From contig CANLVO010000001.1 of NCBI GenBank assembly GCA_947494645.1, positions 806,001 through 870,000 of the forward strand: DNA of 64,000 nt. Reading direction: 5' to 3'. Source of the DNA: an uncultured Litoreibacter sp. Lineage in GTDB: Bacteria; Pseudomonadota; Alphaproteobacteria; Rhodobacterales; Rhodobacteraceae. The position numbers and the translations under genes are program-made. Shown here in pieces: positions 15,623-51,861 of this stretch. The notes beneath the pieces are model-generated. The model was not told the DNA's origin. It made no database searches and was given only the letters and a program-made list of their open reading frames with translations. Position 1 is the first letter of the stretch; each line of letters begins with the position of its first letter.

Positions 15623-16767
15623 TGCTTTGGGTTCTTTTCGCCCTGATGGCCGCCTGCGTTATCATTGGAACCTTGTGGCCGCTTGGCAAAGAAAGCACAG
15701 CGCAGTCAGGCCGCAGCAGCAAGGCCATGGCGATCTACGAAGACCAGCTTGCCGAGGTGGAACGCGACACGGAACGCGGTCTGATCACCGCAGAGGAAGG
15801 CCGCGCCGCCCAGGTCGAGATCAAGCGCCGCATGCTTGCCACGACGGAACGCCCGGAGGTGAAGCACAGCGCTTCTGGCCGCGCGGCTGTTCTGATTGCC
15901 GCGTTGATCGTCCCGCTTGCAGGCTTTGCGCTCTACTGGCAGGTCGGCGCGCCGCAGATACCCTCTGTGCCGTTTGCGGAGCGCGGGCAGGAGCAGGACG
16001 ATGCCCGCCAATTGCAAGCCCTCGTGACTGAGCTGCGCAGCCGTTTGGAAGAAGACCCCAAGGGCGGGGAAACCCGTGGATGGGAGCTTTTGGCCACCAC
16101 CTATATGAACATGGGCCGCCCGAGTCTGGCGGCAGACGCCTTCGCCCAGATCGTGGAACGTCCGGACGCGACATCGGCCACATGGTCGCAATATGCCGAG
16201 GCGCTGATCTCCGCTGAAAGCGGCGCAGTCACGCCACTGGCCCGGCGCGCCATCGACCGGGCGTCCGAGCTTGATCCAACCAACCCGGCCGCAACGTTCT
16301 ATAGCGCCATAGCCATGGAGCAGGAGGGCAATACCGCCGACGCCCGCGCCATGCTGCTTGAGCGTATCGCGCAAGAGGGCCAGCCCGCGCCGTGGATGCC
16401 GACCTTCCTTACGACCGCAAACCAGATGGGCGAACGTCTTGGGCTGGAGCCTGTAGGCCTGCCAGACATCCCTGAGCGCCGTGGCCCGTCACAAGAAGAT
16501 ATCGAGGCGGCAGAAGGGCTGTCAGTCGAGGAACGCGCGGCGTTTATTCAATCAATGGTCGACGGGCTCGAAGCGCGACTGCAAGACGAGCCGGATGATC
16601 TTGACGGCTGGTTGCAATTGACCCGAGCGCTAATGGTGCTGGGTCAGGAAGATCGGGCCTTGGCGGCGCTTCGCGGGGCGGAGCCTTTGGTAGCTGATCT
16701 GCCCGCAGATGACCCGCGTCGCACGATGGTAGAGAACGGCCTCGCGCAGCTTAGCGGCAGCAACTAG
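15622..16767 (+). CDS. ccmI: Cytochrome c maturation protein CcmI (TPR apocytochrome chaperone)
   Basis: The start is the ATG in a TGATG overlap with ccmH; the GTG three bases earlier is equally placed. The roughly 381-residue product has a membrane helix at the very N-terminus and a second near residue 90 (AAVLIAALIVPLAGFALYWQVG), which enclose a cytoplasmic coiled-coil-like loop. A periplasmic TPR domain follows (GWELLATTYMNMGRPSLAADAF and GWLQLTRALMVLGQEDRALAAL). It holds the C-terminus of apocytochromes for CcmH/CcmF. It ends the ccm operon and overlaps the convergent gene tail at a CTAG. Confidence 0.92.
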   Translation: MLWVLFALMAACVIIGTLWPLGKESTAQSGRSSKAMAIYEDQLAEVERDTERGLITAEEGRAAQVEIKRRMLATTERPEVKHSASGRAAVLIAALIVPLAGFALYWQVGAPQIPSVPFAERGQEQDDARQLQALVTELRSRLEEDPKGGETRGWELLATTYMNMGRPSLAADAFAQIVERPDATSATWSQYAEALISAESGAVTPLARRAIDRASELDPTNPAATFYSAIAMEQEGNTADARAMLLERIAQEGQPAPWMPTFLTTANQMGERLGLEPVGLPDIPERRGPSQEDIEAAEGLSVEERAAFIQSMVDGLEARLQDEPDDLDGWLQLTRALMVLGQEDRALAALRGAEPLVADLPADDPRRTMVENGLAQLSGSN

Positions 16768-18818
16768 CCCCGCGCTTTGGCCAAGGCGTCAAGCACGCTT
16801 TCCTTGCTCAACAGCTCAGGCAAGGCGATGCCGTCAGGGGCGCCCGGACCGTAGACGATGTTGAACGGAATGCCGTAGCGCCCATGCTTCTTGAGATAGC
16901 TCAGGATGGTCTCATCAGGCCGGGTCCAGTCGCCGATCATCGGCGTGACATCGTCGGCCCCAAGCGCCTCCACGATGGCGTCGCGGTCTAGCACAAGTGA
17001 TTTGTTGGCCTTGCACGTGAGGCACCAATCAGCGGTGATATCGACAAAGACAATTTGACCTGAATTCACTTCCGCCGCGATCTGCTCTGGCGCGAATGTC
17101 ACCCAATCAGAGCTGCCCGCCATCGCAGTTGGTGCGGGGGCTGTGGTCACCATCGGGACAATCAACGCCGCTGCTGCCAGACCCGCGATTGCAAGCGGGC
17201 GGGCTTTTGACCAGAAGGCCAACACAGCAAGCATGCCCAGCAGGAAAAGGGCGATCAGCGCTGTCGCCGTGCCGCCGGTCACACCCAGGATGACGCTCAA
17301 CAGCCAGACTGCGGTGCCCAGCAGCAAAAGCCCCATGATGAAGCGGACCTTGTTCATCCAAGCGCCCGGTTTGGGCAGGGCCCGCACCGCCTGCGGCCAA
17401 AGGGCCACCAGCAGATAGGGCAGCGCGAGCCCGAGCCCGAGCGCCGTGAAGATCACCAGCACCTGCATGGCAGAGCCCGCCAGTGCAAAGGTGATCGAGG
17501 TGCCAAGAAAGGGTGCCGAACAGGGCGTCGCCAAAACGGCAGCCAGCGCCCCCGTCCAGAAATCGCCGCCCAGCCCTTTGGAAGCGCCATTGCCAGCCAT
17601 CTTGGTGTTCCAGCTTTGTGGCAGATTGATTTCGAACAGGCCAAAGAGATTGGCGGCAAACAACGTCACGATGGTGACCATCACCGTCAGGAAATACGGG
17701 TTCTGGAACTGGATGCCCCAGCCGATTGAGCCGCCACCCGCGCGGATTGCCAGCAGCACCAAGGCCAGCGCCCACATGAATGACAAGACCCCAAGGGCGG
17801 ACATCAGGAAGCCTGCCCGCACCCGGCCCGGGCTCTGGTCGCGAGCCTTCAGCGCAGAGGCAAATTTGATCGTAAGGACCGGCAAGACGCAGGGCATCAC
17901 ATTGAGGATCACCCCGCCGATAAACGCCAAGAGGAAAAACCACGCCAGTCCGCTGCCCGCCGACGGCGCACTGATCCGGTCACCCAGCTCAGGTGCAAAG
18001 CTCGCGGCGCGGGCGCCATCTGTCACGACCAGTTGCAAGGGCGGCATAGTTTCAGGCGTGGCCAGAACGTCAAAGCGCACATGCGCGGTCTTTCCGCCGT
18101 TTGATAGAGCAATATCCGGTGGCCCAAAGCTCGCATCGAGCCCCATATCGGGGATCACCGACAGGTCGCGGAACGGCGTGTCACTCTCCACGACAACCTC
18201 AAGCATGCTCCGTTCGCTTTGCAACGCCGCGCTTGTAACCGCGATATCGCTCAGGTCAGACGCTACAGGCACCTTGGCAGCAGCCTCTGCAATCAACGCC
18301 CCTGCGTCGCGGTCGATCTGGATGCCTTTGGGCAGTACCATCGACAAGGTGAACAGCTCCGGCACGCAGATTTCTGCGCAGACCAGCATGTTGATGTCTG
18401 TCTTCAAGATCAGGTCGTCGCCGGGAGTGTCCAGCGCAAGGCGCAACGGAAAGGTAACGGCGCTTTCATAGCCGTAATTCTCGATCTCGAATGCCGAGAA
18501 ACGTTTGGGCGCGGGCCATAGCAGCTCGTGGTCGGACAGGTTGACGGAGCCGGACCAGTCCAGCTCCATCGGGTAGCCGACAGCGCCCGGCGCGCGCCAA
18601 TAGGTTTTCCAACCCTCGGCCAGCGTCACTTCAATTGCTGCAGAAATGCTTTTGGCTTCCGGGGCCACGCCGTTTTCTGCCGTGATCAGGCGCGCGGTGA
18701 TACGGTCGCTCACGTATGCAGGCGAGCTGCCAGCATGTGCCGTCACAGCTGTCACCAAGAGGCACAGCATCAAGCAAAGACGCGCGAACAGGTGGCTGAG
18801 GCGGGGCAGGTGCATCAT
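16764..18818 (-). CDS. DsbD/ScsB-family thiol:disulfide interchange reductase
   Basis: The product is about 684 residues from the ATG at 18818 (MMHLPRLS..., followed by a good signal sequence). ATG 18851 and longer starts are possible. Domains in order: signal peptide, a periplasmic beta domain with the Cys pair VCAEICVPE, an eight-helix transmembrane domain with cysteines in NVMPCVLPVLTIK and ATPCSAPFLG, and a C-terminal thioredoxin domain with ADWCLTCKANK. Electrons pass from cytoplasmic thioredoxin to periplasmic acceptors. The long N-terminal domain resembles ScsB more than classical DsbD. It converges with ccmI and diverges from the DsbA-like gene, so CcmG and the DsbA-like protein are likely partners. 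Confidence 0.9.
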   Translation of the reverse strand: MMHLPRLSHLFARLCLMLCLLVTAVTAHAGSSPAYVSDRITARLITAENGVAPEAKSISAAIEVTLAEGWKTYWRAPGAVGYPMELDWSGSVNLSDHELLWPAPKRFSAFEIENYGYESAVTFPLRLALDTPGDDLILKTDINMLVCAEICVPELFTLSMVLPKGIQIDRDAGALIAEAAAKVPVASDLSDIAVTSAALQSERSMLEVVVESDTPFRDLSVIPDMGLDASFGPPDIALSNGGKTAHVRFDVLATPETMPPLQLVVTDGARAASFAPELGDRISAPSAGSGLAWFFLLAFIGGVILNVMPCVLPVLTIKFASALKARDQSPGRVRAGFLMSALGVLSFMWALALVLLAIRAGGGSIGWGIQFQNPYFLTVMVTIVTLFAANLFGLFEINLPQSWNTKMAGNGASKGLGGDFWTGALAAVLATPCSAPFLGTSITFALAGSAMQVLVIFTALGLGLALPYLLVALWPQAVRALPKPGAWMNKVRFIMGLLLLGTAVWLLSVILGVTGGTATALIALFLLGMLAVLAFWSKARPLAIAGLAAAALIVPMVTTAPAPTAMAGSSDWVTFAPEQIAAEVNSGQIVFVDITADWCLTCKANKSLVLDRDAIVEALGADDVTPMIGDWTRPDETILSYLKKHGRYGIPFNIVYGPGAPDGIALPELLSKESVLDALAKARG

Positions 18819-19031: not shown

Positions 19032-19754
19032 ATGTTCAAATTCGCCCTTTCTGCCGCAACCGCTTTGGCGTTGTGTTTGCCTGCATCTCTTCAGGCGCAA
19101 GAGCTGGACGAGGCTGCCGTGCGCGCCTTGGTGTTGGATACGATCCGCGAAAATCCCGAGATTATCCGCGAAGCCATCGAGCTGCTGCGCGAGCAGGAAG
19201 TGGCCGCGCAGGAAGCGGCCACCGCCGAAGCGCTGCAACGCCAGATCGGGGCGCTGCACAATGACCCAAACGCCGAAGTGCTGGGCAACCCGGATGGCGA
19301 CATCACCGTCGTGGAGTTCTTTGACTACAATTGCAGCTACTGCCGTCGGGTCTATCCGTCGGTCAAGGAACTGATTGAAGGCGATGACAACATCCGCGTC
19401 GTCATGCGCGAATGGCCGATCCTTGGCGAAGAAAGCGAATTTGCCGCCCGTGCCTCGCTCGCTGCACGCAACCAAGGCAAGTACGAAGAATTTCACAACG
19501 CAATGATGGCCAACCCGGGCCGTGCCTCGCAGGCCACTGTGCTCAGCGTGGCAGATGATCTGGGAATGGATGTCGAGGTACTGATGGCCGATATGCAAAG
19601 CGCCATCATCGACGCACATTTTGAGACCAGTCGGCAATTGGCGCAAGAGTTGGGCGTCAACGGCACCCCTGCATTCGTGTTCGAGGATCAACTGATCCCC
19701 GGCGCAATTGAACTGGACCAGATGCGCGATCTCGTGGCCGAGCTGCGCGGCTAA
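19032..19754 (+). CDS. DsbA/Com1-family periplasmic thiol oxidoreductase
   Basis: The ATG at 19032 gives 240 residues with a clean signal peptide (MFKFALSAATALALCLPASLQAQ). An N-terminal helical region rich in Glu/Ala (about 24-75) precedes the thioredoxin fold with active site FDYNCSYCRRVYP and cis-proline loop VNGTPAFV. The architecture matches the DsbA-family group (ScsC/Com1/BdbD-like) whose N-terminal extension mediates oligomerisation in some members. It sits divergent from the DsbD/ScsB-like reductase. A ScsB-ScsC-type isomerase pair is therefore plausible, although simple oxidase function is also possible. Confidence 0.9.
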   Translation: MFKFALSAATALALCLPASLQAQELDEAAVRALVLDTIRENPEIIREAIELLREQEVAAQEAATAEALQRQIGALHNDPNAEVLGNPDGDITVVEFFDYNCSYCRRVYPSVKELIEGDDNIRVVMREWPILGEESEFAARASLAARNQGKYEEFHNAMMANPGRASQATVLSVADDLGMDVEVLMADMQSAIIDAHFETSRQLAQELGVNGTPAFVFEDQLIPGAIELDQMRDLVAELRG

Positions 19755-43974: not shown

Positions 43975-45273
43975 ATGACAATGACCCTCTCAAGAAATGC
44001 AACGACAGCCGCGCCACTGGCGCAGGGCGCCTCCGGCACGTCAGGGGCCACGACGCGCGATCCGCGGCTCGATTTCTATCGCGGCATCGCGATGTTTATC
44101 ATCCTTTTCGCCCATACGCCTGGCAATTTCTTCACCAGCTGGATCCCGGCCCGCTGGGGCTTCTCCGACGCGACGGAGATATTCGTGTTCTGCTCCGGAA
44201 TGGCGTCAGCAATTGCCTTTGGTCGCACATTTGACCGTGCAGGCTGGGCCTTGGGCACCGCGCGCGTCGGATACCGCGTCTGGCAGGTCTATTGGGCCCA
44301 TATCGGCATGTTCTTCTTCATCGCCATGATGTTGGCCTTCTGGGACAGTTTCGGGATTTTTGAGAAGCGCTACATCGGCACGCTCAACCTTGTGCCATTT
44401 TTTGATGGCGTCACCCGAGGCGGCGAGCTGGTTTCTACCACCGCGGATCAGCTGGTGGGACTGTTCACGCTGACCTATGTGCCGAACTATTTCGACATCC
44501 TGCCGATGTACATGGTGATTTTGGTGATGATGCCGGTCGTCATGGCGCTGAGCCGGGTCAATCTCTATCTGATGTTTGCTGCGATTGGTTTGGTCTGGCT
44601 CTTCGCGCAGGAACTGGTGCTGGGCTTTGTTGGCCTTGACCACCTGACCCTGAACTTCCCTGCCGAGCCGTGGTCGGGCCGCCAGTGGTTCTTCAACCCG
44701 TTTGGCTGGCAGCTGGTCTTTTTCACTGGTTTTGCTTTCATGCGCGGATGGATCCCGGCCCCTCCGGTCAAATGGTGGCTGATTGGGCTGGCACTGATCA
44801 TCGTGCTGGCCAACATCCCGCTGTCAAATATCGGCGTGCGCGCGGTCAACCGCGAATGGTTCGGGCTGGTCATGGAGGGCAACCCGGTCGTGGAGTGGCG
44901 CGTGGCCAACAAGGCGTGGATCACCAAATCCGACTTCGGCCTGTTTCGCTACGTTCACTTTCTGTCAGTGGCCTATCTGGCATGGGTCGCGGCGGGCGTT
45001 GGCGGTCACCGGTTGATTGCATCGGGCGCAAACTGGCTGTCCCGCCTCTGGGGCGTCGTCGTCGCGATCATCATGAAGGTCGGACAGCAATCCTTGGCTG
45101 TCTTCGTTTTCTCGATGGTGTTCGCCCGAGTGCTGGGCTTCGCCTATGACCAGATCGAGCGCTCTACGTCCGTCGTCACGACTGGGAACCTGATCGGCTG
45201 TGCGGCGTTGATTGGCGTTGCCTACTTCGTGGGCTATATCAAACGGCAACCTTGGAGGGTGAAACCCACATGA
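43975..45273 (+). CDS. opgC: OpgC protein, succinyl modification of periplasmic glucans
   Basis: The 432-residue polytopic membrane protein has about ten helices, starting RDPRLDFYRGIAMFIILFAHTPGNFF, the OpgC/acyltransferase-3-like opening. Later features are YVPNYFDILPMYMVILVMMPVVMAL and WFFNPFGWQLVFFTGFAFMRGW. OpgC adds succinyl groups to osmoregulated periplasmic glucans. The four-base ATGA overlap with opgG and its position at the head of opgCGH fit this role. ATG 43981 is an alternative start two codons later. Confidence 0.88.
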   Translation: MTMTLSRNATTAAPLAQGASGTSGATTRDPRLDFYRGIAMFIILFAHTPGNFFTSWIPARWGFSDATEIFVFCSGMASAIAFGRTFDRAGWALGTARVGYRVWQVYWAHIGMFFFIAMMLAFWDSFGIFEKRYIGTLNLVPFFDGVTRGGELVSTTADQLVGLFTLTYVPNYFDILPMYMVILVMMPVVMALSRVNLYLMFAAIGLVWLFAQELVLGFVGLDHLTLNFPAEPWSGRQWFFNPFGWQLVFFTGFAFMRGWIPAPPVKWWLIGLALIIVLANIPLSNIGVRAVNREWFGLVMEGNPVVEWRVANKAWITKSDFGLFRYVHFLSVAYLAWVAAGVGGHRLIASGANWLSRLWGVVVAIIMKVGQQSLAVFVFSMVFARVLGFAYDQIERSTSVVTTGNLIGCAALIGVAYFVGYIKRQPWRVKPT

Positions 45274-46799
45274 CGCTGTCGCGCCGTTCATTTCTGGCCA
45301 TGTTGGGGGCTGCCGCTGTAGCGGGCAGGGCGGATGCTTTGCCAATGTTCAAAGGCTCGCCGCAACCCTTCTCTCGTGAGCTGCTGGTAGAGCGCGCGCG
45401 GACAATGGCGACGCAGGATTACGCCCCAATGCCAGAGGTGCCTGCGGGCTGGCGCGACCTGAGCTATGACCAATACCGCGCGATCTGGTTTAACTCGCAA
45501 AAAGCTCTGTGGTCGGACACCAAGCGCCCGTTCCACATGGATTTTTTCCATCCGGGCCTGTACTTTCCGCGTCCTGTCGAGATCAACATTGTGGACGGTG
45601 ATACCGCGCAGACGCTGGCCTTTGACATCTCGCTATTTGATAGAACGGATACCTTCCCTGATCTGCCGGTTGACGACACGATGGGGTATTCCGGCTTCCG
45701 CCTGCGGGCTGAGTTGAAGACGCCGGAAATCTTCGAAGAATTCCTCGTGTTTCAAGGTGCGAGCTACTTCCGTGCCATTGGGACCGGACAGAATTACGGC
45801 CTGTCGGCACGCGGCCTATCGCTGAACACTGGCGACGCGGCGGGGGAGGAGTTCCCCGAATTCACCCATTTCTTCGTCGAGGCACCCGAACCCGGTGCGC
45901 GGATGACACGGGTCCATGCGATCCTCGACAGCCCGTCGGTCACAGGCGCCTATACCTTTGATATCACTCCGGGATTGCCCGCTGAGATGAAGGTGAAGGC
46001 CACCCTGTTTGCACGCAAAGAGCTGGATCATGTGGGCGTCGCACCGCTGACCTCGATGTTTTTGTTCGACGAGACCAATCGGACCCGTTTTGACGATTTC
46101 CGTTCGGCTGTACATGACAGTGAGGGCCTTTTGGTCTGGAACGGAGCCGGGGAGCTGCTGTGGCGGCCGCTGGCGAACCCGAGAGAGCTGGAAATCTCCA
46201 GCTTTGTTGATGACGGTCCGCGCGGATTTGGCCTGATGCAACGCGCCCGCGAGGCCGAGGATTTCGCCGATCTGGAAGCGTTTTACCACAATCGACCCTC
46301 GCTCTGGATCGTGCCGTCAGAGGATTGGGGCAAGGGCTCTGTGACCCTGGTCGAGATCCCGTCCGACAAAGAAATCTACGACAATATCGTGGCCTACTGG
46401 CGCCCGCGCGAACCGCTGCAGCCGGGCCAAGCCTATGATTTCAATTACACAATGGAGTGGGGCGGCGAGCCCGTGCGGCCACGCAATGTGGCCAAGGTGC
46501 TCAATTCGCGGATTGGTAGAGGGTACGACAAGAAGGTCCCGTACCAGATCATCGCGGTCGATTTTGACAACCATCCGGACTTTGGTGGTGATGCTGACCT
46601 CGATCTCATCACGCGGTTCATCTCGAGCAATCGTGGCACCGTGTCGGACGGGGTGTTGCAGCGCAATCCGGGGACGGGTGGGCTGCGGTTGGCGTTTAAG
46701 TTCGACCCGGGCGAGGCCACGGGAGCGGAGCTGCGGGTGCAACTGGTCAAGGACGGCGTGTCGCTGACCGAGGTCTGGCTTTACAGGTGGACGGCATGA
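45270..46799 (+). CDS. opgG: Glucan biosynthesis protein OpgG/OpgD, Tat-exported
   Basis: The 509-residue periplasmic protein has a twin-arginine signal (LSRRSFLAMLGAAAVAGRADA). A Tat signal is seen in OpgD, while E. coli OpgG uses Sec, so either name is defensible. Mature features are SYDQYRAIWFNSQKALWSD, PVEINIVDGDTAQTLAFD, GASYFRAIGTGQNYGLSARGLSLNT and TSMFLFDETNR, typical of the MdoG family. It branches or shapes the beta-glucan backbone made by OpgH. It overlaps both neighbours by four bases (ATGA), so the three proteins are translationally coupled. Confidence 0.92.
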   Translation: MTLSRRSFLAMLGAAAVAGRADALPMFKGSPQPFSRELLVERARTMATQDYAPMPEVPAGWRDLSYDQYRAIWFNSQKALWSDTKRPFHMDFFHPGLYFPRPVEINIVDGDTAQTLAFDISLFDRTDTFPDLPVDDTMGYSGFRLRAELKTPEIFEEFLVFQGASYFRAIGTGQNYGLSARGLSLNTGDAAGEEFPEFTHFFVEAPEPGARMTRVHAILDSPSVTGAYTFDITPGLPAEMKVKATLFARKELDHVGVAPLTSMFLFDETNRTRFDDFRSAVHDSEGLLVWNGAGELLWRPLANPRELEISSFVDDGPRGFGLMQRAREAEDFADLEAFYHNRPSLWIVPSEDWGKGSVTLVEIPSDKEIYDNIVAYWRPREPLQPGQAYDFNYTMEWGGEPVRPRNVAKVLNSRIGRGYDKKVPYQIIAVDFDNHPDFGGDADLDLITRFISSNRGTVSDGVLQRNPGTGGLRLAFKFDPGEATGAELRVQLVKDGVSLTEVWLYRWTA

Positions 46800-48661
46800 C
46801 GCAATTTATGCCGCCAAATCAACCCCTTGCGCATCCAAAGCAGAACCTGCGGCGGGACTATCATGATCAACAGGCGCCGGACTTCAGACCGACGACAGGC
46901 GTGTCGTGGTGGAGGGGGCTTGTCTTCGTTCCGGCCTTCTTGACGACCTTCGGGTTGATCATGGTGTTCACGGATTTCTTCGCCATGGACGGGCTGACCT
47001 GGTTCGAGACGGGCCTTATCACCCTGATAGCATTGACATTTTTCTGGATTTCGCTCTCGGTCTCGACCGTGACTGCGGGTATATTGAACCTGCTCAGACC
47101 AGAACGACCTCGGGCGGCCTTGAACGTAACGCCTTTGAAGACCGCATTGCTTGTCCCGGTCTATAATGAAGACCCGATCGAGGTTTTCGGCAACGCGGCA
47201 GCGATGCTCAATCAGTTGAACAACGCTGCGCATGTGCATGATTTTACGCTGTTTATCCTGTCTGACACACGCGACGATATGATCGCGCTGAAAGAGTGTC
47301 AGGCGTTTGCCGAGCTGCGCAGCCGGATGGACGGACGGATGCAGGTCTATTACCGGCGAAGGGCCGACAATACGGACCGCAAAGTCGGCAATCTGGCCGA
47401 TTGGGTGGAGCATTGGGGCGGCGGCTACGAGGCGATGCTGGTGCTTGATGCAGATAGTCTTATGTCGGCCGAGGCGATCATTGCATTGACTGACGAGATG
47501 TCTGCAGACTCGAGTGCTGGTCTGATCCAGTCAGTGCCGCAACTCTTTGGCGCAGATACATTATTTGGCCGCGTGCAGCAGTTTTCGAATACGGTCTATG
47601 GCGCTGTATTGGCTGAAGGACTGGCAAAATGGGCTGACCGCGAGGGCAACTACTGGGGTCATAACGCGATCATTCGGACGGCGGCGTTTGCGGCTTCGGC
47701 GGGGTTGCCGAAACTGGATACGTTCCGCTCTAAAGGGGCGTTGATCCTGAGCCATGATTTTGTGGAGGCGGGTTTGTTGCGTCGGGCGGGGTGGGCGGTG
47801 CGCTTTTTGCCTCGGGTCAAGGGCAGCTATGAGGAAGTGCCGGGCAATCTGATTGACTATGTCCGGCGTGACCGGCGCTGGTGTCAGGGCAACCTGCAAC
47901 ACCTTAACATATTGGGATCAAAGGGTTTCCATACGGTAACGCGGTTCCATTTGTTCCATGGCGCGATGTCATATCTGCTGTCTCCGGCGTGGTTTATCTT
48001 GCTGGCGGTGTGGGCTGTGATCGGGGTGAGTGCCGAGGAAAACGTCATCACGTATTTCACCGGGGACAACCCTCAGGTGGCTTGGCCGGAAATCGGTCAC
48101 GCGAACAATTTGTTCATTTTATTCTTTATGTACGGGATGTTACTGGCTCCGAAGTTCCTTGGTGCCACTGCGATTGGCCGCACTGGTGTCAGCTTGAGAG
48201 ACCTTGGGGGGCCGGTTCAGTTTGTGTTTAGCTTTGTGACGGAGATCGTTGTCTCCGTCCTGTTTGCGCCGATCCTGATGGTGCAACAAACATTAGCTGT
48301 GGCCCGTACCTATCTGGGATTCAAGGAAAAATGGATACCTCAGTCGCGTCATGGGGCGCGGTATTCGCTTTTGGATCATGTGAAATTCCATGCCGCTGAG
48401 ACCATAATCGGCGCGGCCTTGGTCTTTGGGATGTATGAAGGCATCATCACTTTGTGGCTGTCGCCGATTGCGATCAGCCTGCTTGGGGCGGTGTTTTTCT
48501 CATATATTTCAGGGGTTAAGTTGGATCGCTTTGAATGGACGCGTCGGCAGATGGGCACCGCAGAAGTGTTCAACGCGCCGTCCATCATTCGTGCGGCGAA
48601 GCGGGAAAGGCTGCGGTTGAAGCGGGCGTTGGATGAGGCCGATCACGTCCCGGCGGAGTGA
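46796..48661 (+). CDS. opgH: Glucans biosynthesis glucosyltransferase OpgH
   Basis: The 621-residue GT2 membrane protein starts in the ATGA overlap (MTQFMPPN). After two N-terminal helices a cytoplasmic GT domain carries LLVPVYNEDPIEVFGN, the DxD motif VLDADSLMSAEA (about 215) and the Q/RxxRW motif RRDRRWCQGN (about 360). Several membrane helices follow. It polymerises UDP-glucose into beta-1,2-glucan across the inner membrane. The protein is shorter than E. coli OpgH (847), as usual in alphaproteobacteria. It is the last gene of opgCGH. Confidence 0.93.
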   Translation: MTQFMPPNQPLAHPKQNLRRDYHDQQAPDFRPTTGVSWWRGLVFVPAFLTTFGLIMVFTDFFAMDGLTWFETGLITLIALTFFWISLSVSTVTAGILNLLRPERPRAALNVTPLKTALLVPVYNEDPIEVFGNAAAMLNQLNNAAHVHDFTLFILSDTRDDMIALKECQAFAELRSRMDGRMQVYYRRRADNTDRKVGNLADWVEHWGGGYEAMLVLDADSLMSAEAIIALTDEMSADSSAGLIQSVPQLFGADTLFGRVQQFSNTVYGAVLAEGLAKWADREGNYWGHNAIIRTAAFAASAGLPKLDTFRSKGALILSHDFVEAGLLRRAGWAVRFLPRVKGSYEEVPGNLIDYVRRDRRWCQGNLQHLNILGSKGFHTVTRFHLFHGAMSYLLSPAWFILLAVWAVIGVSAEENVITYFTGDNPQVAWPEIGHANNLFILFFMYGMLLAPKFLGATAIGRTGVSLRDLGGPVQFVFSFVTEIVVSVLFAPILMVQQTLAVARTYLGFKEKWIPQSRHGARYSLLDHVKFHAAETIIGAALVFGMYEGIITLWLSPIAISLLGAVFFSYISGVKLDRFEWTRRQMGTAEVFNAPSIIRAAKRERLRLKRALDEADHVPAE

Positions 48662-48671
48662 CCGAAACTCT

Positions 48672-48726
48672 GTTTTGTACAAAACGGGGTAGGTTTTTAG
48701 ACCCCAAAACCCATTTTGTACAAAAC
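48672..48726. repeat. Pair of exact GTACAAAA palindromes with central hairpin
   Basis: GTTTTGTACAAAAC (48672-48685) is a perfect 14-bp palindrome, and ATTTTGTACAAAAC (48713-48726) shares its 12-bp core TTTTGTACAAAA. Centres are 41 bp apart, close to four helical turns. GGGGT and ACCCC between them can pair. The elements lie between the convergent ends of opgH and the esterase gene, where promoters are not expected. A terminator-like cruciform or a pair of regulator sites are the candidate readings. Confidence 0.55.
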
Positions 48727-48771
48727 TCTGCGCCGGTTTTGGTAAGGCCCTGTTAACCATGCAGCGCATCC

Positions 48772-48790
48772 ATCCACAGGCTGTGGATAA
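48772..48790. promoter_or_regulatory. Inverted pair of DnaA-box-like sequences
   Basis: ATCCACAG-G-CTGTGGAT is a 17-base inverted repeat. The right half extended (CTGTGGATAA) is the complement of the perfect box TTATCCACAG. It sits 82 bases after opgH. A single pair without parAB, rnpA, gidA or hemE nearby is not an origin; it may be chance or a DnaA titration site. Confidence 0.35.
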
Positions 48791-48809
48791 CTTCGACAAT
48801 CAGATCAGA

Positions 48810-49637
48810 TCAGCTTGAGGACAGGTCGAGCCCCTCGAACCAGTCGAGCGCGGAGTTGGACCAGCCTTTCGGAATGCCGTGGGCTCCGGGGTGGAGGATG
48901 AACTCCAACGCGCCGTTTTCGCAGGTGTCCCATTTCCGGATCCAGAACTCTCCGGATGTGTCGAAACTGTCGGCGCGTTTTCCGAGGCAGCGGTTGGTTT
49001 CGCGCCAGACCTGCATTCCGTACCAGACGTCCCCTTGTTCGATATCGGCGACGCTGAGGGGGCGGCCCTCAAGGGGGACGGTCTTGTCTTTCCAGCCGTG
49101 GGTGTGGAGCAGCTTGACCGGACCTTCGCAAGCGTCAATCGCGGGGTGGGGGCGCCAGAAACTGCCCGCAACCGGCGCGTAGGCGGCGGCGAGGTCGGGC
49201 GCGTCACAGGCCATGTAGCTGACCATCGAGCCGCCGATGGAAAAACCCGCGAGCAAGACACGGTTCCGGTCGATGCCGTGGGTTTGTGCGGCGTCGTTGA
49301 GGATTTCGCGCATGAAGGCGATCTCGTCGCGTTGCTGGGGCCGGGCAGGGTGGAAGGACCAGCCGGGGCCAAAGCGTGAATTGGGGCGTTTCAGCCCGTT
49401 GGGACCGATCACGGCATATCCACGGTTGAGCGCGGTGCTCATGCGCATGGCCTGTTTGCCGTTGCCGCCTGCGCCGTGCAGGAACAGCAACACGGGAGGG
49501 GCCTCGACACCTTCGGGGAGCATGATGTGATACTCGCCCAGCGGCGTGGTGCAGGGCACGTCCGTGTCATCTGCGCAGCCCGCTTGCGCCTGACTGGCCA
49601 AAAGCGTTGCGGCGGCCAGAGCGGCGATGCGCATCAT
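48810..49637 (-). CDS. Secreted alpha/beta-hydrolase, PHB depolymerase/feruloyl esterase (LpqC) family
   Basis: The 275-residue protein has a signal peptide (MMRIAALAAATLLASQAQA). The esterase core has LLFLHGAGGNGKQAM (oxyanion region), the nucleophile motif LLAGFSIGGSMVSYMAC (GxSxGG), LLHTHGWKDKTVPLEG (acidic residue region) and a late His in FILHPGAHGIPKGW. It probably hydrolyses an ester in the periplasm. The ATGA overlap with the Tat-rhodanese gene upstream places it last in a five-gene exported module. Two to four cysteines could form disulfides. Confidence 0.85.
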   Translation of the reverse strand: MMRIAALAAATLLASQAQAGCADDTDVPCTTPLGEYHIMLPEGVEAPPVLLFLHGAGGNGKQAMRMSTALNRGYAVIGPNGLKRPNSRFGPGWSFHPARPQQRDEIAFMREILNDAAQTHGIDRNRVLLAGFSIGGSMVSYMACDAPDLAAAYAPVAGSFWRPHPAIDACEGPVKLLHTHGWKDKTVPLEGRPLSVADIEQGDVWYGMQVWRETNRCLGKRADSFDTSGEFWIRKWDTCENGALEFILHPGAHGIPKGWSNSALDWFEGLDLSSS

Positions 49638-50107
49638 GGGTCTTTGTTCAGAGGCAGGTCGCGTTTGATCCAGCCGGGGCCGCGCTTGTTGCCGAGCATG
49701 CCTTCGGGCACGTCGATGACGTTGGTGAAGCCTGCCGCGATCAGCTTGTTGTTCTCGCGTGCAGAGCGGACGCCGCGTGCGCAGATCAGGGCCAGCGGCG
49801 CGGAGCGGTCACCGCCCACAAGCTTGTCGAGCTCTTCGATAAAGTCGTCGCGGCGCAAATCGAGGCGTACGGCATGCTCGCCCGAACCCGTCTTGGCCCA
49901 TTCGTCGGGGCGACGGATATCAACCAGTGTGATTTTACCTTCGCCCGCCAGCCTATGCGCGGTGGGCGGGTCGAGGTTTTCGGCAGCACTGGCCTCGGTG
50001 ATGACCGCATAGAACAGGTTGCGGCCTCCGGCGGCGAAGAACGCGCCAGTGCCCAGGGCTGCGACGCCGCCTGCAAGAAAGGCGCGACGGGTGAGTTTGG
50101 AGGCCAT
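49634..50107 (-). CDS. Tat-exported rhodanese-domain protein
   Basis: The 157-residue protein has a twin-arginine signal (KLTRRAFLAGGVAALGTGAFFAAGG) followed by a rhodanese fold: TLVDIRRPDEWAKTG, VRLDLRRDDF, and the active-site loop LICARGVRSARENN with Cys about residue 116. CxxGxxS-type loops carry a persulfide. IDVPEGMLGNKRGPGWIKRDLPL is a typical C-terminal segment. Tat export indicates that the fold is completed or a cofactor bound before crossing. It overlaps its neighbours on both sides within the SCO1 module, suggesting periplasmic sulfur or metal-thiol chemistry. Confidence 0.88.
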   Translation of the reverse strand: MASKLTRRAFLAGGVAALGTGAFFAAGGRNLFYAVITEASAAENLDPPTAHRLAGEGKITLVDIRRPDEWAKTGSGEHAVRLDLRRDDFIEELDKLVGGDRSAPLALICARGVRSARENNKLIAAGFTNVIDVPEGMLGNKRGPGWIKRDLPLNKDP

Positions 50108-50679
50108 CAGCCCAGCTCCTTGGTGTATTTTGCAACGATACCGGCCGCCTGTTGCGGTGTCACGATGGGCGGCACGAGGGTGAGGAACTTGCCCTGCGCA
50201 TCAAGCAGATAGACGAAGCTGCCATGCGCATAGACGGGCCCGAACTCCGGGTCGACGAAGACCTCTTCTTTCTCGATGGAATAGGCGTCATAGGCCACTT
50301 GCAACTCCGCCTCTGTGCCTGTCAGACCGACAAACTCGGGGTGAAATTCCGCGAGCTTTGGGCCCATCGTCTCGACTGTGTCACGGACCGGGTCGACGGT
50401 GATCATGACGGGGGTGATTTCCATGCCCTGCGCCTCGATCTCGGCGACGACGTCGGCCATCATCGGGAAGACGGCAGAGCAGATTTCCTGACAATTCACA
50501 TAGCCAAAGAACAGCAATTGCGGGCGGCCCTGCGGGTCCACCTGCGTGTAGCTTTCGCCATGCTGGTTGGTCAGCGCATAGTCCCCGCCCAGATCAAAGG
50601 GCAGGGGCGTTTCGGCCAAAGCGGGTGACGCCATGGCCAAGCCGAGCGCTGTGGCGCGGATCATCGAGAGGGCTTTCAT
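50107..50679 (-). CDS. SCO1/SenC-family periplasmic protein
   Basis: The start MKALSMIRATALGLAMASPALA gives 190 residues with a Sec signal; a longer in-frame extension upstream is unrelated in composition. The thioredoxin-like SCO fold has FFGYVNCQEICSAVFPMM (CxxxC copper site, about residues 65-69) and the copper-ligand His in VYAHGSFVYLLD (about 151). SCO proteins insert copper or reduce Cys in cytochrome oxidase CuA. No cox gene is in the window. Its partners here are two Cys-motif exported proteins and a rhodanese, so copper delivery to a different target is possible. Confidence 0.9.
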   Translation of the reverse strand: MKALSMIRATALGLAMASPALAETPLPFDLGGDYALTNQHGESYTQVDPQGRPQLLFFGYVNCQEICSAVFPMMADVVAEIEAQGMEITPVMITVDPVRDTVETMGPKLAEFHPEFVGLTGTEAELQVAYDAYSIEKEEVFVDPEFGPVYAHGSFVYLLDAQGKFLTLVPPIVTPQQAAGIVAKYTKELG

Positions 50680-50686
50680 GGCAGGC

Positions 50687-51256
50687 CTAGCGGGTGATCT
50701 CATAGGCTTCCTCAGCGGAGAGGCCCTGACCCAGATGGCCGGTATCGGCGATGATCGCGTTGACACGCGGATCACGGCGGAACCACGGGCCTTTGCCTTT
50801 GGCCTCGGGATGTTTGGCCGCCCAGACCTTGGTCCATTTATTGGCCTTGGCCCATTCGGCCGCGCCTGCATCCTTGATCTTTTGCACGAGATAGATGTTG
50901 GTGGCGCCGGGGATATCTTCATCCTCGATCAGCAGCCCGTCCACGTCGACCATCTTGCCGCAATAAGGGTGCAGGTCATAGGCCGCGCCGTTGAAGGAGC
51001 TTTGCGAGTTCTTGTTGGGGTAGACCAGCACATTGTCGGCGGAGCGGACGAGACCAAGCTGGCGACCCTCGGCGCATTGGTTGGCGCAATCGCCCGCGAC
51101 GGTGCACAGGATATCTACGACTTCGGCCTCAAAGGTGGCGGGCACTTCGGCGTAGAGGTTCCACGACTTGGCGGTGGAGCCTTCAGAGAAATCCTGCGCG
51201 GCCAGCGGCGTTGCGACCAGTGCCAGAGCGGCGGCGAATGTTTTGAGATGTTTCAT
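50687..51256 (-). CDS. Exported cysteine-motif protein B, unknown function
   Basis: The 189-residue protein has a signal peptide (MKHLKTFAAALALVATPLAAQ). The mature region contains EVVDILCTVAGDCANQCAEG (Cys about 50, 56, 60) and QLGLVRSADNVLVYPN, then LHPYCGKMVDVDGLLIEDED. The order E-(V/I)-(V/I)-D-x-x-C ... C-x-x-x-C-x-x-G ... G-L is also present in the upstream partner (51268). They may therefore be distant paralogues with an OB-like strand arrangement. A basic C-terminal half (WAKANKWTKVWAAKHPEAKGKGPWF) is distinctive. Seven bases separate it from the SCO1 start. Copper, haem or thiol binding is possible but not shown. Confidence 0.7.
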   Translation of the reverse strand: MKHLKTFAAALALVATPLAAQDFSEGSTAKSWNLYAEVPATFEAEVVDILCTVAGDCANQCAEGRQLGLVRSADNVLVYPNKNSQSSFNGAAYDLHPYCGKMVDVDGLLIEDEDIPGATNIYLVQKIKDAGAAEWAKANKWTKVWAAKHPEAKGKGPWFRRDPRVNAIIADTGHLGQGLSAEEAYEITR

Positions 51257-51267
51257 GCTGTTGCCCC

Positions 51268-51723
51268 TTACTTCTTCGGCTTGGGAATGGCGAAACCGGG
51301 CACCACGCCGTAATCTTCATGGTTCAGGTTGGTGATGCCACGATCTTCGACGACCGCCTCGACCACCAGATAGTTCAGCCCGTCGCGCTTGTAGAGCATG
51401 CCGTCGGCCACGATCTCGTGGCTGGCCAGCGTCAGCTGGGTGTCGCCCGATGCCGACTGGTCGTCGCCGTTGATCTTGAGGACCATGTAGACCTCCCCAT
51501 CATCGCCCAGCAGGCCCACGGGGATACCACCGGCAGAGCACCAGAGCGCGCAAGTGTGATGCGCCGAGCCGACCACCGCATCGGGGCCGCCCATGACGCC
51601 GGAGAAGTAGCACCATGTGTCGATGATCTCGCCTGTGATCTGGACGCGTTCGCCCTCTGCCGCGAAGGCCGGGGCTGCAGCAAGGGCCATGGCCGCTGCA
51701 GCGATTGAGGTTTTCAGGGTCAT
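51268..51723 (-). CDS. Exported cysteine-motif protein A, unknown function
   Basis: The 151-residue protein has a signal peptide (MTLKTSIAAAAMALAAAPAFAA). The mature part starts VQITGEIIDTWCYFSGVMGG. It continues with AHHTCALWCSAGGIPVGLLGDDGEVYMVLKIN: two His, two Cys and a Gly-Gly-Ile-Pro turn. The C-terminal third is a beta-rich stretch ending in FAIPKPKK. The H-x-x-C-A-x-x-C pattern suggests metal or haem contact. It heads the five-gene minus-strand operon, preceded by an inverted repeat at 51756-51779. I recognise the motif as recurrent in small exported proteins but cannot name a characterised family. Confidence 0.72.
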   Translation of the reverse strand: MTLKTSIAAAAMALAAAPAFAAEGERVQITGEIIDTWCYFSGVMGGPDAVVGSAHHTCALWCSAGGIPVGLLGDDGEVYMVLKINGDDQSASGDTQLTLASHEIVADGMLYKRDGLNYLVVEAVVEDRGITNLNHEDYGVVPGFAIPKPKK

Positions 51724-51755: not shown

Positions 51756-51779
51756 TTCTTGCTCGGAGCGTAGCAAGAA
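51756..51779. promoter_or_regulatory. Inverted repeat upstream of the exported Cys/SCO1 operon
   Basis: TTCTTGCT and AGCAAGAA are exact 8-bp arms around an 8-base spacer (CGGAGCGT), 33 bases upstream of the first gene start (51723). The position suits an operator or a leader hairpin of the operon. On the minus strand a T-poor sequence follows, so it is not an intrinsic terminator. Confidence 0.5.
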
Positions 51780-51861
51780 AACCGGGCCGGACCGCATCAC
51801 TTTCTGGTTAAATTCGTGAGGGTTGGGCGTTGCGGCAAGAAAATCGCGGTGAACTGCGGCT

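Follow-up and report, generated by a model that had tools for sequence, protein, structure and literature searches.

A conserved operon of two exported cysteine-motif proteins and a SCO1/SenC-type protein in Litoreibacter and other Alphaproteobacteria

We analysed a 64,000-nt stretch of DNA (the window; G000:C1:806001-870000) whose closest named relatives, judged by protein A below, are Litoreibacter. Five consecutive genes and an upstream element are the features of interest:

51796-51803, minus strand: AAAGTGAT element, 73-80 nt upstream of A
51268-51723, minus strand: gene A, a secreted 151-aa Cys protein and the first gene of the conserved core, with C38, M44, H55, H56, C58 and C62
50687-51256, minus strand: gene B, a secreted 189-aa Cys protein and distant homologue of A, with C51, C57, C61 and C99
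50107-50679, minus strand: SCO1/SenC-type protein (SCO) with a CQEICS motif and distal His (AHGS), of a divergent clade found in A-B operons of the host family and two further families
49634-50107, minus strand: Tat-type single-domain rhodanese, in a neighbouring module outside the conserved core
48810-49637, minus strand: secreted esterase, nearest to PHA depolymerases, accompanying the rhodanese

The first-pass annotation described five exported genes overlapping or separated by at most 11 bp. All five minus-strand ORFs and their spacings were confirmed (+11, +7, -1 and -4 nt along A, B, SCO, rhodanese and esterase), and export signals were recognised by eye: Sec signals for A, B, SCO and the esterase, and an RR motif for the rhodanese. 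The SCO start that best gives a signal peptide, also by eye, is at 50679; the ORF list starts this frame upstream, at 50922. Pfam assigned the SCO1-SenC (E=3.9e-38), Rhodanese (3e-9) and alpha/beta hydrolase (~1e-9) domains, and the nearest NCBIfam models for the esterase were short-chain PHA depolymerases, below cut-off. The annotation also took the five genes to be one module. This holds in part: A, B and SCO are linked far more often than chance would allow, but linkage of all five is partial, and the row consists of two abutting modules, A-B-SCO and rhodanese-esterase. The operon is real, conserved and uncharacterised, and it is smaller than the five genes first described.

Linkage beyond this genome had been set beforehand as a test, and it was found. 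Exact peptide patterns of A retrieved 216 loci from named genomes, of which the best-scoring 80 were kept; the set therefore represents close relatives selected for a conserved A. Within these best 80 of 216, B directly followed A in 80/80 loci and SCO then followed B in 77/80, with median gaps of 8 nt between A and B and -1 nt between B and SCO. Two of the three exceptions (L102 and L119) stop at a contig edge, and the third, Palleronia rufa (L144), has no recognisable SCO after B. Gene maps outside the window came from our own codon-usage caller; its starts are approximate, and some genes escaped it or were truncated (in L194 both A and B, in L143 B). Genes flanking the trio differ from genus to genus, and no further constant partner was seen in the 80 loci, where only some neighbour clusters were identified.

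Broader samples gave a similar picture. Among 61 relatives, A had matches in 23 genomes, and B matched exactly those 23. Of 295 genomes sampled evenly across the family, 32 matched A, three of them by weak partial matches, leaving 29 counted; in a sample of the phylum A matched 10 of 398, all in the same class and one (G099) solely via a membrane paralogue. A search with B in 385 genomes of the class returned 15, the genome analysed here among them. The trio is present in other alphaproteobacterial families, in varying surroundings. SCO adjoins in 10 of the 13 A-B loci examined outside the host family (in L204 it is split over two frames) and was not seen beside A-B in L202, L203 (1.2 kb to the contig end) or L210; these 13 are the loci retrieved, apart from four further class matches of the B search. 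A set of 62 genomes combined the 29 A-positive members of the even family sample with 33 A-negative ones, hand-picked from listed genomes and not random. SCO adjoins A in 27 of the 29 A-positive genomes, each of which has at least one further SCO elsewhere. Because SCO is missing beside A-B in three of the 13 outside loci and two of the 29 genomes inside the family, the trio is not inseparable.

The rhodanese and esterase behave differently. By BLAST, each was found in 28 of the 80 A-B-SCO loci, both together in 27 and neither in 51, with the pair on the opposite strand in L131. Our gene calls placed all five genes in a row in 22/80 loci. A rhodanese search matched 38 of the 62 genomes (29 A-positive and 33 A-negative) and returned 30 loci. 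Six of the 30 adjoin A-B-SCO, and ten contain rhodanese and esterase with no A-B-SCO in the 1.5-kb flanks. Trio-free pairs occur both in A-positive genomes (L245, L246, L248, L251, L253, L255 and L258), where A is on another contig or at least 45 kb away, and in A-negative genomes (L259, L260 and L262). Since the pair occurs without the trio, we reject the five-gene system as a unit.

The first-pass annotation had placed rhodanese and esterase in the same system as SCO and proposed periplasmic metal-sulfur chemistry for the whole. Adjacency of the exported genes in Litoreibacter and some relatives, with the 22 loci in a row and the 27 holding both genes, is what speaks for a single five-gene metal-sulfur system; the 51 loci with neither gene and the ten pairs standing alone largely refute it, and we regard it as very improbable. 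The rhodanese, on which the metal-sulfur idea rested, falls outside the core, so that idea is left without a foundation. Chemistry of copper or thiols centred on SCO is still plausible.

In the window, opgC-, mdoG- and mdoH-type glucan genes adjoin the rhodanese-esterase pair (44092-49637), and mdoH lies near the pair in several other genera. The mdoH gene is within reach in 7 of the 10 trio-free pair loci, and L249 has a rhodanese with mdoH. These neighbours suggest that the pair is linked to periplasmic glucans.

A and B are families unnamed in the libraries used here (Pfam and NCBIfam). Window A and B gave no Pfam match even at E<=10; among 28 A-type and 23 B-type members the best Pfam E-values were 0.0052 (DUF4431, 3 members) and 0.016. 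In NCBIfam, window B had no match and window A three, far below cut-off, and the best E-value for B-type members was 0.032; for the A-type set this search covered window A and one paralogue only. A few word searches over titles and the starts of abstracts found no paper on A, B or the operon, which is not proof of absence. No relatives of A were found in viral contigs or plasmids, and none of B in viral contigs.

C38, M44, H55 and C58-xxx-C62 are kept in 80/80 family copies of A. The pattern WC-x5-M-..-AH[HF]xCAxWC occurs in 79/80, the 80th having Ser for Ala with the ligands unchanged, and in 11 of the 12 outside loci that were gene-called. The exception is L201 (genome G859, at L201:9441), where the A frame is interrupted just before C38 and B and SCO downstream look intact. 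In B, C51 and C57-xxx-C61 (Cx5CxxxC) are kept in 80/80 family and 12/12 outside copies; 22 of the 23 members aligned also have C99. By profile comparison, A and B are homologues: hhalign with deep profiles gave 95.7% (E 9.8e-9), where an earlier comparison with shallow profiles had given 23% only. A search with the A profile also picks up three B proteins from outside the family (E 2e-4 to 6e-6).

Sequence searches of the PDB with A and B returned nothing significant. AlphaFold models (mean pLDDT 87 for A and 90 for B) had many OB proteins among their top Foldseek matches, including RPA, Lys- and Asp-tRNA synthetases and SSB. The best E-values were 0.34 (A) and 0.071 (B), with none at E<=0.001, so that both proteins look OB-fold-like in the models without a significant fold match. 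The PCuAC chaperone motif given in PMC12617631, H(M)x10Mx21HxM, is absent, as the translations of window A and B contain no HxM. In A of G319 (L078), a His-rich stretch lies after the leader, with 21 His in the 146 residues ahead of the conserved domain; in L197 it is the SCO that is His-rich, with 16 His among its 233 residues. These two cases, each from a single lineage, give a hint, but only a hint, of metal.

By its sequence, the window SCO is a divergent extra copy of a known family. It scores 130.9 bits against PF02630 (cut-off 22.8) and has the copper motif, CQEIC with AHGS. Among family operon copies, CxxxC is present in 76/77 and a simple His pattern in 71/77. According to PMC12617631, Pro follows the second Cys of the SCO motif (CxxxCP). 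The window SCO has Ser at this position, and family operon copies replace the Pro with Ser, Thr, Ala or Asn in all but one of 76 motifs. SCO proteins were present in all 62 genomes, with a median count over all matches of 3 in A-positive and 1 in A-negative genomes. The other SCO of the genome analysed is flanked by RegB and RegA, which score above cut-off for their NCBIfam equivalogs, and is the regB-senC-regA copy.

We placed these proteins in a 64-row tree. The 26 family operon rows (one in three of the family copies, and the window SCO) formed one clade (100/100) with the SCOs of outside loci L193 and L194, apart from 29 ordinary copies, namely the genome's own SenC and 28 copies from the 30 best-scoring loci, L211-L240, of which a motif filter removed two. 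The other seven of nine outside SCOs side with the ordinary ones (six with CPDICP, one with CTETCP), so the specialised SCO is seen only in the host family and two others. Compared with SCO1/SenC chaperones such as the SenC of regB-senC-regA, the window-type SCO thus shares the domain, the CxxxC and the distal His, but belongs to a separate clade and has A and B as operon partners in place of regBA or cox.

The first-pass annotation had noted that no cytochrome oxidase gene is near SCO, and had held that its proposal would fall if the genes always lay beside a cox operon in relatives. We recognised no oxidase gene near SCO and no adjoining cox operon. A scan for three oxidase motifs (Cox1, CcoN and CuA), run without a positive control, found none of them in the six-frame translation of the window or in the ORFs of the 80 loci; 58 of these loci span 20 kb or more. 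These results, together with linkage that extends to other genomes, support an uncharacterised module of exported proteins around SCO, away from oxidase genes. In the window, 16 of 60 gene calls were scanned with Pfam and the rest seen as first residues only; the neighbours so assigned were LOG and the mdoH, mdoG and opgC-type genes that come after the esterase. Among the neighbour clusters of the 80 loci, most of which were not identified, those put through Pfam proved to be an acetyl-CoA synthetase, a solute-binding protein and an FrhB-type protein. Others we take, from their first residues, to be trigger factor, NAD kinase and glyA.

Three secreted CxxxC proteins, one of a copper-chaperone type, are inherited together with no other constant partner seen; SCO serving A and B is therefore the most economical reading. 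We propose, at about even confidence, a self-contained periplasmic operon in which the CxxxC sites of A and B are loaded with copper, or reduced, by a dedicated SCO. SCO, with its thioredoxin-fold-type CxxxC and His site, would be the dedicated maturation factor. Its clients would be A and B, homologous and OB-fold-like, each with CxxxC and further Cys and A also with His and Met. The reaction would be to keep the A/B thiols reduced, to hand copper to A and B, or both, with transfer presumably running from SCO to the pair. A and B may contact each other, and together would form a small copper-thiolate pair, whose final role might be a store, a relay to a further cuproprotein as putative final target, or an electron carrier. 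Copper is the metal we infer from this context; the Cys3-His and Cys4 ligand sets of A and B could bind zinc instead.

The shared CxxxC could also indicate a metal-free thiol-disulfide relay, with SCO as reductase and A and B as redox carriers or thiol-peroxidase-like partners. Loss of the CxxxCP Pro from the host-family SCO fits such a relay, as do a DsbD-type reductase and a ScsC-like DsbA protein about 30 kb away in the window. However, the further Cys, His and Met of operon-borne A are as constant as its CxxxC, which goes beyond the needs of a dithiol, and the His-rich stretches of two members point to metal. We consider such a relay improbable.

Alternatively, A, B and SCO might jointly assemble a cuproenzyme encoded elsewhere, for example methanethiol oxidase (MtoX/SBP56) or a cytochrome oxidase. 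SCO proteins are known to chaperone copper. According to PMC5739008, mtoX clusters carry an SCO of their own. SBP56 is commoner in A-positive than in A-negative genomes (20/29 vs 12/33, Fisher p=0.013, with no correction for kinship or for testing two families). Yet SBP56 is missing from 9 of the 29 A-positive genomes and present in 12 of the 33 A-negative ones, and is thus not required. In the genome analysed, mtoX (G000:C1:2340829) lies about 1.5 Mb from A (857271) and so is not adjacent to it. NosZ had no positive link with A (8/29 A-positive vs 16/33 A-negative, p=0.12), and we rejected it as a target on that ground. The genome already has its regB-senC-regA SCO, and no recognised cuproenzyme gene recurs near the trio among the neighbour clusters identified. 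We judge assembly of such an enzyme to be rather unlikely.

Among the closest known systems, the mtoX-SCO1/senC-mauG cluster (PMC5739008) is alike in having a dedicated SCO within an operon with its proposed copper client; here SCO shares its operon with two small Cys proteins.

CusF is a periplasmic OB-fold copper chaperone that uses His, Met and Trp. A and B are likewise small, exported, OB-fold-like and in a copper context, but they have Cys sets and no significant PDB sequence match. A also has CxxxC, His and Met available, as in the ligand set of the CuA sites of CoxB and NosZ; its model is OB-like, not cupredoxin, it has no Pfam match, and the CuA spacing motif is absent from the window.

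A broader proposal, which we advance tentatively and regard as somewhat doubtful, is that A and B found a new class of paired OB-fold periplasmic copper-thiolate proteins (C58xxxC62/H55/M44/C38 and C57xxxC61/C51/C99) with their own SCO and a membrane branch beside a ferric-reductase-like/Rieske protein. If true, this membrane-bound branch would mean that the fold serves more widely in Alphaproteobacteria, as an electron-transfer or copper module. A bacterium may hold several SCO proteins without a known client, and deletion of both Sco1 and Sco2 in Caulobacter leaves oxidase activity unaffected, according to PMC12617631. Coupling of SCO to two strongly conserved Cys proteins offers a concrete, testable client for such an orphan. 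It also brings forward, from the marine Roseobacter group, two protein families unnamed by the libraries used; interest in the copper and organosulfur chemistry of this group is broad.

A membrane-anchored paralogue of A occurs in the genome analysed at L191:9162-9926 (G000:C1 ~194162-194926; motif GEICDGKC..HKACAALC) and in L205-L209, with no Pfam or NCBIfam match above cut-off. It stands in a row with a ferric-reductase-like/Rieske protein in 6/6 loci (Pfam checked in L191) and beside a thiamine-diphosphate enzyme in 4/6, Rieske-fused in L191.

Upstream of A, the pattern AA-N(1-3)-GTGAT was found in 38/80 loci compared with 24/711 control upstream regions, the sequences being related and not independent. 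A regulon scan with this element written as ACCARNANGTGATSC gave 15 sites in 12 of 21 genomes, and the reversed-pattern control gave 4 sites. Six of the 15 lie just upstream of A; three others, when inspected, were inside coding sequence, and these 9 inspected sites of the 21-genome scan yielded no co-regulated gene. The promoter region of A also contains a perfect inverted repeat, TTCTTGCT-8-AGCAAGAA (window 51756-51779), which is only partly kept in other Litoreibacter and not widely conserved.

Elsewhere in the window, a DsbD-type reductase with a Thioredoxin_7 domain (16767-18818, minus strand) and a DsbA-like protein with a ScsC_N copper-resistance domain (19032-19751, plus strand) are encoded by genes that adjoin ccmF and a redoxin.
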